In this document: positions 4,152-16,275 of the stretch, piece after piece | Layout of the letters: every line of letters starts with the position of its first letter | How positions within the stretch are numbered: the stretch's first letter is position 1 | Assembly: GCA_022865215.1 (NCBI GenBank) | Contig: JALIDP010000006.1 | Coordinates: 1 to 34,180, forward strand | Direction of reading: 5' to 3' | DNA from: Candidatus Nanohalarchaeota archaeon QJJ-7 | Lineage (GTDB): Archaea; Nanohalarchaeota; Nanosalinia; Nanosalinales; Nanohalalkaliarchaeaceae | Length of the DNA stretch: 34,180 nucleotides | The notes under the pieces: model-generated | What the model saw: only the letters and a program-made list of their open reading frames with translations | What the model was told of the DNA's origin: nothing | The model's database searches: none | Position numbers and translations under genes: made by a program

Positions 4152-4221
4152 TGGACCGGTCGGGATTTGAACCCTGAGCTTCCGCAGGATGCGAGGATAT
4201 CAAATCCCGGAGAGAATGAAA
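4152..4221 (-). repeat. Trailer duplication of the tRNA-Ala 3' end with internal inverted copy
   Basis: 'tggaccggtcgggatttgaaccc' at 4152-4174 and 4222-4244 (70-bp period). On the minus strand CGGGATTTGA...TCAAATCCCG is palindromic. Confidence 0.75.
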
Positions 4222-4375
4222 TGGACCGGTCGGGATTTGAACCCGAGGCCTCTCCCTGTCTCGCGTCGAAGCCCTCCTCGGAGATAAGAGACCTCCTCTG
4301 ACCGCTGTCTCTCCTTCAAGGTCGAGAAAGCGGTGTTGCGAAGGGAGCGTTCTAGCCAGGCTGAACTACCGGCCC
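4222..4375 (-). tRNA. tRNA-Ala(CGC), intron-containing (intron ~4257..4336)
   Basis: GGGCCGG/CCGGTCC acceptor with G3:U70; D-stem GTTC/GAAC; anticodon loop TTCGCAA; stem CTCCC/GGGAG; T-arm TCGGG-TTCAAAT-CCCGA. Confidence 0.8.
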
Positions 4376-4386
4376 ATATAGCGGGA

Positions 4387-4448: not shown

Positions 4449-4449
4449 A

Positions 4450-4523
4450 GGGCGAGGGCCGGGCCGAAAACTGACGTTTTCTTGACGACCCTCGTACGCT
4501 TCGCTCAAAGGGCGAGGGCCGGG
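4450..4523 (-). repeat. Trailer duplication of the tRNA-His 3' end, 60-bp period
   Basis: 'gggcgagggccggg' at 4450-4463 and 4510-4523, with hairpin GAAAAC-GTCA-GTTTTC between (minus strand). Confidence 0.65.
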
Positions 4524-4644
4524 ATTCGAACCCGGGGCGGGAGCGCCACAGGCTCCTAGTTTAAGCCACTCCAAACTCCGTAAGGAGTTTGCGCGTGGTT
4601 GAAACGCCACGCATTGGAGTTTAAGCCACTAACCTACCCTCGCC
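4511..4644 (-). tRNA. tRNA-His(GTG) with 60-bp insertion in the D-arm
   Basis: GCGAGGG/CCCTCGC acceptor with C73 and encoded G-1; loop CTGTGGC in stem GGAGC/GCTCC; T-arm CGGG-TTCGAAT-CCCG. Removing 60 bp restores a standard cloverleaf. Confidence 0.8.
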
Positions 4645-6697: not shown

Positions 6698-6781
6698 GGC
6701 GGGGTGGTCGTCCAGTTCCTCGGAAGAAGTGGTGGACGGAGAAAACCGTCAGGTTTTCGAAACCCCCGCCTGAGCGTAAGC
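6698..6781 (+). repeat. Leader of tRNA-Pro with an upstream partial copy of the tRNA 5' end and inverted acceptor strand
   Basis: GGCGGGGT at 6698 and 6782; inverted CCCCGCC at ~6764-6770; hairpin GAAAACC-GTCA-GGTTTTC. Confidence 0.5.
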
Positions 6782-8824: not shown

Positions 8825-8889
8825 TGCGGGGGGTCGGATTTGAACACGAAGCTCGCCTCCGGGAGCTTCTCGGGGTTCAAATCCCTTGA
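8825..8889 (-). repeat. Trailer duplication of the tRNA-Leu(TAA) 3' end, with the 37-bp hairpin shared with tRNA-Ser
   Basis: 'tgcggggggtcggatttgaac' at 8825-8845 and 8890-8910; 'gaacacgaagctcgcctccgggagcttctcggggttc' at 8842-8878. Confidence 0.85.
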
Positions 8890-11255: not shown

Positions 11256-11309
11256 TTTCCTCCGGTGCGTGTATCAGGCACCGCCAGGTGCGCACTACAC
11301 CACCGGGCT
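11256..11309 (-). repeat. Leader duplication of the tRNA-Gln 5' end
   Basis: 'cactacaccaccgggct' at 11239-11255 and 11293-11309 (54-bp period). Minus strand: CCGGTGGTGTA / TACACgCACCGG inverted copies flank hairpin GCACC-TGGC-GGTGC. Confidence 0.8.
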
Positions 11310-15045: not shown

Positions 15046-15142
15046 CTGTATGCCTCTGGATAGTATTAGAAATTATTCTTTATAAAGAAGTCTTATAACG
15101 GGATAATAATGCCTTCAGGGCGGTGGAATCTCCCCGAGATAT

Positions 15143-15232
15143 CGGGAGAACGCCCGGGGCCGGATTCGAACACGAAGCTCGCCTCCGGGAGCTTCTCGGG
15201 GTTCGGAATCCGGCTGATATACTTCGGGAGAA
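15143..15232 (-). repeat. Trailer duplication of the tRNA-Ser 3' end with the 37-bp hairpin shared with tRNA-Leu(TAA)
   Basis: 29-bp 'cgggagaacgcccggggccggattcgaac' at 15143-15171 and 15225-15253; 37-bp identical block at 15168-15204. Confidence 0.87.
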
Positions 15233-15635
15233 CGCCCGGGGCCGGATTCGAACCGGCGTAGGCGTTGCCGCCTACCCGCTCTCAACTTAGGACAGTCCTG
15301 AAATCGGAGATTTCAGTCGTGTCGAGTGAAACCTCCGGTTTCACGACAGGGCGGTACGCCCTGTTCCAAACTCCTCTGGGAGTTTGTGCACACGCACGAA
15401 CTCCGACGGAGTTCGGAGTGAAGGTCACCTGCGCTCCATTCTCGCTCGTTTCACTCGCTCGAATCCGTCTGGACTCGACCGAGCGGAGCGAGGGAGAGTG
15501 GAACTCACCTACTTCCTCCAGGAAGTAGGTTCGAACAGCTTTCCGGAGGAAAGCTGTGACGTGGTGACCTTGAGGTGGGAGGGCTCCCTCCTAAGCTCAA
15601 GGCGGGCGCATTTAGCCAGACTCTGCCACCCGGGC
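15233..15635 (-). tRNA. tRNA-Ser(TGA) with a ~315-nt intron (~15281..15595)
   Basis: GCCCGGG/CCCGGGC with G73; CCCGC/GCGGG anticodon stem; loop CTTGA(GA); variable arm TAGGCG-GCAA-CGCCTA; T-arm GCCGG-TTCGAAT-CCGGC. Confidence 0.75.
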
Positions 15636-15840
15636 CTGTGCCGCCCGGTGGGCAGATTGAGCACCGTCAGGTGCGTGACTCTGCCACCCGGGCTTTCTAT
15701 CGGGTGGCAGTTCGAGCACTGCCAGGTGCGTGACTCTGCCACCCGGGCTCTTTCCTCGCCGGGTGGCTCTGTCGAAAACGCTGGCGCGTTTTCTTGACCA
15801 GTGAACCTGGAAGGGTACACTGGATCTGCCACCCGGTCTT
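15636..15840 (-). repeat. Three tandem extra copies of the tRNA-Ser 5' end, each with a hairpin and an inverted copy
   Basis: 'gactctgccacccgggc' at 15619-15635, 15677-15693 and 15732-15748; 'gatctgccacccggtct' at 15823-15839. Hairpins GCACCTGACGGTGC, GCACCTGGCAGTGC and GAAAACGC-GCCA-GCGTTTTC. Confidence 0.85.
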
Positions 15841-15864
15841 GTACCTGAATTGAGGTAGAACGCT

Positions 15865-16275
15865 TTAAAATCCGTCTTTTTTCTCCAGATAGTCGTCCAG
15901 GATCTTCCTGTGGTCGAAACCGAGCTTTTCAGGCAGCTCTTCGAGATCGAACCATCGGGCCTCCTCTGCGTCTGTGGCCGCGTCCATCTCTCCCTCTTCT
16001 TCCGAGCAGATGTAGGAGATGGATATGACAGGTCCTCTCGGGTCTCTACCGGGTTCATCGTAGACCCCGTGAAGCTCCTCGATGCTTATCTCCAGCCCGG
16101 TCTCCTCTCTGGCCTCCCGCCTCGCTGCATCCTCTACCATCTCACCTTCCTCCACGTGACCCCCAGGTATGGCCCAATGCCCCTTGAACGGTTCTCTTGC
16201 CCGTTTCACGAGAACGATCTCTCCCTCACTCTCTATGATCGTGTCGACCGCCACCCTGTGCCTGTTCCTTTCCAT
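15865..16275 (-). CDS. NUDIX hydrolase
   Basis: GGHVEEGEMVEDAARREAREETGLEI; likely start MERNRHRVAVD. Confidence 0.88.
   Translation of the reverse strand: MERNRHRVAVDTIIESEGEIVLVKRAREPFKGHWAIPGGHVEEGEMVEDAARREAREETGLEISIEELHGVYDEPGRDPRGPVISISYICSEEEGEMDAATDAEEARWFDLEELPEKLGFDHRKILDDYLEKKDGF

Follow-up and report, generated by a model that had tools for sequence, protein, structure and literature searches.

The tRNA-Ser(UGA) gene on the minus strand of the window (the whole analysed stretch of 34,180 nucleotides) is preceded by repeated copies of its own 5' end. This raises the question of what such a leader is, how it arose and whether it is peculiar to this gene. When long introns were allowed, ARAGORN placed the gene at 15635-15233 (-) with a 315-nt intron and a spliced product that is a perfect tRNA-Ser(TGA), which confirms the identity given in the preliminary description of this DNA. 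Default ARAGORN and Rfam scans of the 34-kb window missed the gene because of this hairpin-filled intron; it was detected only if an intron of that length was permitted. The 5' exon (15596-15635), whose native 5' end is the innermost copy, the intron with its many palindromic hairpins (15281-15595) and the 3' exon, which carries G73 (15233-15280), were all defined on the minus strand by this ARAGORN run with long introns. The tRNA body is in normal order, without the separated or reordered halves of a split or permuted tRNA. The 315-nt insert lies at the anticodon-loop position and the mature tRNA is intact once it is removed, both as expected of an intron. A search for the canonical motif gave no single in-phase BHB in it, where a nested or relaxed form may be present.

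Because part of the intron (15497-15558) is a member of a repeat that is dispersed in the genome, the 315 nt may represent more than one insertion. The repeat, a hairpin (CGTTCCnnGGAACGCTGTTCGAACCTGCTTCCnnGGAAGCAGGTGACTTCCACTTGAAGGTCATCAC), is also present away from tRNAs in this genome (G000) at C1:8179-8341, C26:2379-2719, C8:11393-11483, C30:33836-33927 and C5:11408-11443; the introns of Lys, Trp, Cys and Arg tRNAs contain a related motif, AGGTTCCACYCTCGCTCCGCTCGAGTCC. The window contains 16 perfect hairpins of at least 8 bp, seven of which are located in the Ser(UGA) intron (15298-15557) and an eighth in unit 1 of the leader.

Read from the promoter on the minus strand, the leader consists of a TATA-like element, units 1, 2 and 3 and then the tRNA. 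A repeat finder located four 5'-end copies across 15619-15838 (-) at spacings of 58, 55 and 90; GACTCTGCCACCCGGGC is exact at 15619, 15677 and 15732 and is present as the variant TCTGCCACCCGGTC at 15825-15838. Four tandem copies had been ascribed to the leader. The number stands, but only three of the copies are extra, as that at 15619 is the 5' end of the tRNA itself. The outer unit 1 comprises the sense copy, which is diverged at nt 2 (GACCGGG; 15825-15838), hairpin h1 CCAGTG...CACTGG (15798-15823), hairpin h2 GAAAACGC-GCCA-GCGTTTTC (15774-15793) and the antisense copy GCCACCCGG (15759-15767). In unit 2 a sense copy that matches the tRNA 5' end exactly (15732-15748) is followed by hairpin GCACCTGGCAGTGC (15716-15729) and antisense copy CTGCCACCCG (15701-15710). 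Unit 3 has an exact copy of nt 1-17 (15677-15693), hairpin GCACCTGACGGTGC (15661-15674) and antisense copy TCTGCCCACCGGGC (15643-15656), the last of which was recognized by folding as well as by reading; all these elements are on the minus strand. The hairpins and inverted 5' segments reported after each upstream copy were thus both present when the sequence was read directly. The same holds for the TATA-like TTTTAAAG (15863-15870, read from 15870 to 15863 on the minus strand), the centre of which lies 28-29 nt before the outermost copy. The idea that this copy is a still usable 5' end is not supported: GACCGGG in place of GCCCGGG breaks acceptor pair 2-71, and only the inner copies fit the 3' acceptor strand CCCGGGC of tRNA-Ser(UGA). 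No known RNA family in Rfam overlaps the leader. A protein-coding reading of the repeat region was rejected after two overlapping ORFs gave 0 Pfam family matches.

Downstream of the gene the arrangement is found in mirror image. A T-arm antisense strand GCCGGATTCCGAAC (15201-15214, -) is followed by the hairpin GAAGCTC...GAGCTTC (15174-15195, -) and by a second tRNA 3' end (from the T-loop through nt 73 and 10 nt beyond; 15142-15171, -) with exact 30-nt identity to 15224-15253. The preliminary description was incomplete in that it omitted this downstream copy and the recurrence at other tRNA genes of the window and the genome. The pattern is not special to the Ser(UGA) leader; the architecture is recurrent, 3' ends included, and the four-copy tRNA-Ser(UGA) is the most extreme case of it.

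Recurrence at tRNA ends

Exact direct repeats of at least 12 nt with a spacing of 35-140 nt were collected over the window and merged into loci. Nine loci were obtained, with 0.2 such repeats expected per window from shuffled windows. Seven of the nine were at tRNA genes; the other two were elsewhere and had no antisense copy. Sense copies of a 5' end were located in the leaders of tRNA-Arg(UCG) (11293-11309, -) and tRNA-Pro(GGG) (6698-6711, +), and second copies of a 3' end at tRNA-Leu(UAA) (8825-8845, -), at the tRNA at 4221-4376 (4152-4174, -) and at that at 4510-4643 (4449-4463, -). The order of elements is distal sense copy, hairpin, antisense copy, spacer and tRNA, with the mirror image at 3' ends, and in every clear case the sense copy is far from the tRNA and the antisense copy nearer to it.

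For the genome as a whole the first 24 nt of each tRNA were aligned with its upstream flank and the last 28 nt with its downstream flank, and the flanks of tRNAs for other amino acids (mismatched tRNA-flank pairs) served as background. A 5' copy was present at 9/30 tRNA genes, clustering 52-59 or 82-90 nt upstream, and a 3' copy at 10/30. The background rate was 0.25% for 5' and 3.5-7.5% for 3' copies, the values for this genome being 0.25% and 3.5%. G001, which belongs to the same family as this genome, has a 5' copy at 6/21 and a 3' copy at 14/21 tRNA genes; the figures are 2/22 and 6/22 in G007, from another family, and 3/24 and 9/24 in G008, which is one contig, and G003 and G006 each have two 5' copies and one 3' copy in 30 tRNA genes. 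In the same flank scan G002 gave 0/30 at 5' and 1/30 at 3' ends and G004 no copies at 28 tRNA genes, and G005, of the family of G007, had 0/32 at either end. The distribution is therefore patchy: several genomes of the same order possess units and three (G005, G002 and G004) are without or nearly without them. Acidic proteins, together with small genomes in its relatives, tentatively place this uncultivated archaeon among the Nanohaloarchaeota. In the distant control G029 the apparent copies resemble adjacent tRNA genes and were read as such because the background there was 14%. Several unit-bearing genomes are single contigs, and the pattern is therefore not a binning artefact. Chance or an assembly artefact was ruled out, since the sequence varies from unit to unit and units are found again in genomes that were assembled independently, among them the one-contig ones.

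The units are of several types. Type i has one hairpin, GCACCTNNCGGTGC, which has four matches in this genome, every one in the leader of a tRNA gene (Ser UGA, Cys, Asp and Arg); the hairpin of Ser(UGA) unit 2 is a one-base variant. This sequence has two matches in G007, at least one of them in a leader (tRNA-Gln), and zero in the 26 other relatives. Type ii has two hairpins, the second being GAAAAnn...nnTTTTC (Ser, Pro, Gln and Cys). Type iii is a foldback without inner hairpin at Leu tRNAs, with an antisense strand, CTTGCCAACCCC, that is identical at three Leu tRNAs in three genomes. Type iv comprises the trailer units, which have GAAAA...TTTTC, GAAGCTC...GAGCTTC or GCACC...GGTGC hairpins. 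Most units fold better than their shuffles (z about -2 to -6). Differences from the tRNA numbered 85 in antisense strands versus 7 in distal sense 5' copies, a count that is biased because units were chosen by sense similarity and antisense ends are ragged. Even as a biased count, this speaks against uniform neutral decay of all strands.

These types bear on the order of events at Ser(UGA), for which it had been proposed that the outer unit is the older and that copies were added inward. In the same genome tRNA-Ser(GGA) and tRNA-Ser(CGA) each have only one leader unit, and outer unit 1 can be aligned with both. The copy-number comparison with a sister genome that had been recommended proved informative: tRNA-Ser(UGA) of G001, which is intronless, has one leader unit versus three here, and this unit is of the outer type and at equal distance. 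Units 2 and 3 share 88% identity over 49 nt and are of the type that Cys, Asp, Arg and Gln tRNAs also have. Because the outer unit is common to Ser tRNAs, that of the relative included, and the inner type is otherwise found only at tRNAs for other amino acids, the comparison supports the proposal, with two inner units probably inserted later between the outer unit and the tRNA. A fresh parallel is provided by the trailer of tRNA-Gly(UCC) in G001, in which the whole unit is repeated exactly in tandem.

Probable transcription of the units and a test for splicing

Of 11 genes with a leader unit, eight have a TATA-like hexamer 20-50 nt (about 29 nt) upstream of the distal copy, and none has one before the tRNA itself. 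In genes without a 5' unit it preceded the tRNA in 14 of 19. This position argues that the leader units are most likely inside the primary transcript, and the TATA spacing at Ser(UGA) agrees with the earlier view that its repeats belong to the transcription unit. Bacterial-type terminators were searched for and none was found. The RNase P protein Rpp30 is encoded in this genome and in 22 of the 28 genomes searched; a search for the RNase P RNA found none in this MAG, which is 78% complete, but detected it in 15 of the 28. Nanoarchaeum has leaderless tRNAs and no RNase P. A similar situation is not supported here, Rpp30 being present. In the relatives G003, G015, G019, G014 and G010 the matches to the RNase P RNA model scored below the cut-off and spanned 367-409 nt; because this exceeds the 288 positions of the model, the RNA may have gained inserts too.

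Trailer copies are usually intact from the T-loop to nt 73, where identity mostly ends; their acceptor strand is 93% identical to the tRNA and the 5' strand of the T-stem 52%. The segment of nt 61-73 is mostly unpaired with anything in the hairpin and is 91-93% identical, although the selection of units by copy similarity biases this figure as it does the 5' sense versus antisense count. As the copies are well kept to nt 73, the distal end might be an exon, and BHB motifs were therefore tested. The distal copy would then be the true exon, and hairpin, antisense strand and proximal copy would be removed by splicing. Such a terminal intron would account for the precise mature ends that the distal copies retain (nt 1-15 or about 60-73) and for their reach to about nt 60, 59/60 being an archaeal tRNA junction that is already known (PMC3218864). 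In addition, this genome has one tRNA, tRNA-Gly(GCC), whose 5' part is indeed the distal one, its D-loop intron being bounded by a direct repeat. However, the 16 leader units reached at most 8/10 in phase, which was not above the out-of-phase controls, and the 41 trailers likewise did not exceed theirs, whereas tRNA-Gly(GCC) and the tRNA at 4510-4643 (His) have D-loop introns with a perfect 3-4-3 motif (10/10) and the anticodon introns of Met, Cys, Trp and Gln also score 10/10. Moreover, the acceptor stem would be disrupted if certain distal copies were used (outer Ser UGA, Leu CAG and the Trp trailer). Beside the unit lies a contiguous tRNA with a paired acceptor stem, for which removal of the unit is unnecessary to give the mature tRNA, unlike the removal of an intron. 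Since the scores, in contrast to those of the D-loop introns, do not rise above the out-of-phase controls, we conclude that the leader and trailer units are not canonical introns. Splicing in the canonical BHB geometry is ruled out by the in-phase scores, and the terminal intron is quite improbable.

Origin of the end copies

We prefer to regard the units as end duplications of tRNA genes around foldback hairpins, generated by recurrent duplicative insertion, transcribed, and trimmed as leader or trailer; in our judgement this has about an even chance of being correct. A recurring DNA event would insert a hairpin at the end of a tRNA gene together with an antisense copy of that end and a short spacer. 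Beyond the insert it would leave another copy of the end, covering nt 1 to about 16 in leaders or about 54-60 to 73 in trailers, whereby the tRNA would remain complete. The two copies would constitute direct repeats, between which slippage or unequal exchange could multiply or delete whole units, and the three units of tRNA-Ser(UGA) would result from such exchange between the repeated ends. Once transcribed as leader or trailer, a unit would fold on itself, its distal sense strand pairing with the antisense strand so that the latter would not trap the tRNA. The leader would be removed by RNase P and the trailer by a 3'-end nuclease, and the units would be nearly neutral. The recurrence at tRNA ends over background, the patchy distribution, the position of the TATA-like hexamer, the z values of the folds and the tandem units support end duplication. 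The hairpin module GCACCTNNCGGTGC shared in trans, the presence of Rpp30 and the lack of a canonical BHB also fit it.

Less in line with end duplication is that the distal copies are closer to their own tRNA than simple decay predicts, which may reflect selection rather than youth, and that the boundaries at nt 1 and nt 73 would not be expected of a random template switch. Short template-switch (quasi-palindrome) mutations create inverted copies beside direct duplications. The units resemble them in this respect, but such mutations leave the shared hairpin modules and the nt 1/nt 73 boundaries unexplained. Given these sharp boundaries and the shared modules, an insertion that duplicates its target is more likely than random template switching.

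The well-kept distal ends and changes that preserve stems leave room for selection on the RNA. The distal sense/antisense hairpin could be an element of the pre-tRNA that caps the precursor, guides co-transcriptional folding or aids end processing and that is kept by selection. The antisense strand is able to pair with either copy. In tRNA-Ser(CGA) nt 7 is an A and the sense and antisense copies both carry the matching change; the tRNA-Pro(CGG) hairpin departs from the tRNA at three positions, each time in both strands; and the h2 stems vary as whole pairs (GAAAACGC/GCGTTTTC, GAAAATC/GATTTTC and GAAACCT/AGGTTTC). The constancy of the Leu antisense strand in three genomes and the strong conservation of the distal ends are also consistent with selection. 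Against this, units are missing at all 32 tRNAs of G005 and nearly so in G002 and G004, and therefore are not required for tRNA maturation in the order. Besides, G000 and G001 differ in the unit type at one and the same tRNA (e.g. Asp and Leu UAG), which implies fast turnover, and strands have decayed in some units (Leu CAG). A selected element is therefore unlikely, yet a possibility to be taken seriously.

Archaeal integrases have as their hallmark a direct repeat of the 5' or 3' end of a tRNA, and the units could be attachment-site repeats of integrative elements, or hairpin cassettes from an integrase that duplicated the tRNA end as its target. As with pNOB8-type elements and SSV1-type attachment sites, a direct repeat of the tRNA end is present near an intact gene and the repeat ends coincide with the tRNA ends. 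A 5' fragment of Caldiarchaeum tRNA-Thr situated 1.8 kb from the gene has been interpreted in that way, with a pNOB8-type integrative element (PMC3293823). The inserts considered here are, however, about 40-130 nt long and have no coding capacity, unlike a gene-bearing insert with an integrase. A hairpin is present in all of them and an antisense arm in most; they flank the tRNA on either side as mirror images, affect many tRNAs per genome and occur in tandem, and no integrase was present among the neighbouring genes examined. Integration remnants are accordingly highly improbable. Tentatively, tRNA ends might be the duplicated targets of a putative machinery that inserts hairpin cassettes with a guide-like antisense arm. 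This would give repeat-cassette-repeat arrays such as the Ser(UGA) leader, the transcribed sense/antisense hairpins of which may be folding or processing switches; we consider this speculative and rather doubtful.

Among archaeal tRNA introns, non-canonical D-arm and T-loop introns and intron transposition have been described in Thermoproteales (reviewed in PMC4090602). The units share with these the insertion at tRNA genes, hairpin modules common to different tRNAs and rapid gain and loss, but are outside the mature tRNA, lack a BHB and carry a tRNA-end copy with its antisense strand. In the permuted tRNAs of Thermofilum pendens the 3' half has moved upstream (PMC3218864), which likewise places tRNA-end sequence between promoter and tRNA in a long leader; here, in contrast, the sequence of the same end is copied and the tRNA is complete. 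No description of the arrangement was found in the open-access literature. It is apparently undescribed and falls outside the nearest known kinds, the newness being that of the arrangement and not of a function.

If end duplication is right, it represents an undescribed, recurrent remodelling of tRNA genes across a whole archaeal order, and the gain of inserts, introns and flanking fragments by tRNA genes becomes testable, as sister genomes allow young (exact tandem units), decaying and empty states to be set side by side. In such genomes tRNAs escape ARAGORN and Rfam scans run with default settings. The tRNA-Leu(UAA) genes of G001 (G001:C16:12088, L102) and G007 (G007:C15:9394, L124), which have a short D-arm insert and an extra 3'-end copy downstream, were uncalled by ARAGORN even with introns permitted.

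The tRNA at 4510-4643 (-) was given a GTG anticodon by the default scan, which makes it His, and is Ala according to ARAGORN with introns. Its 60-nt D-loop intron is flanked by a 13-nt direct repeat, AGTGGCTTAAACT, which pairs with its own copy to give the perfect BHB, and the same is seen at tRNA-Gly(GCC) (G000:C29:15062). An intron may therefore arise in one step when a quasi-palindromic D-loop is duplicated.
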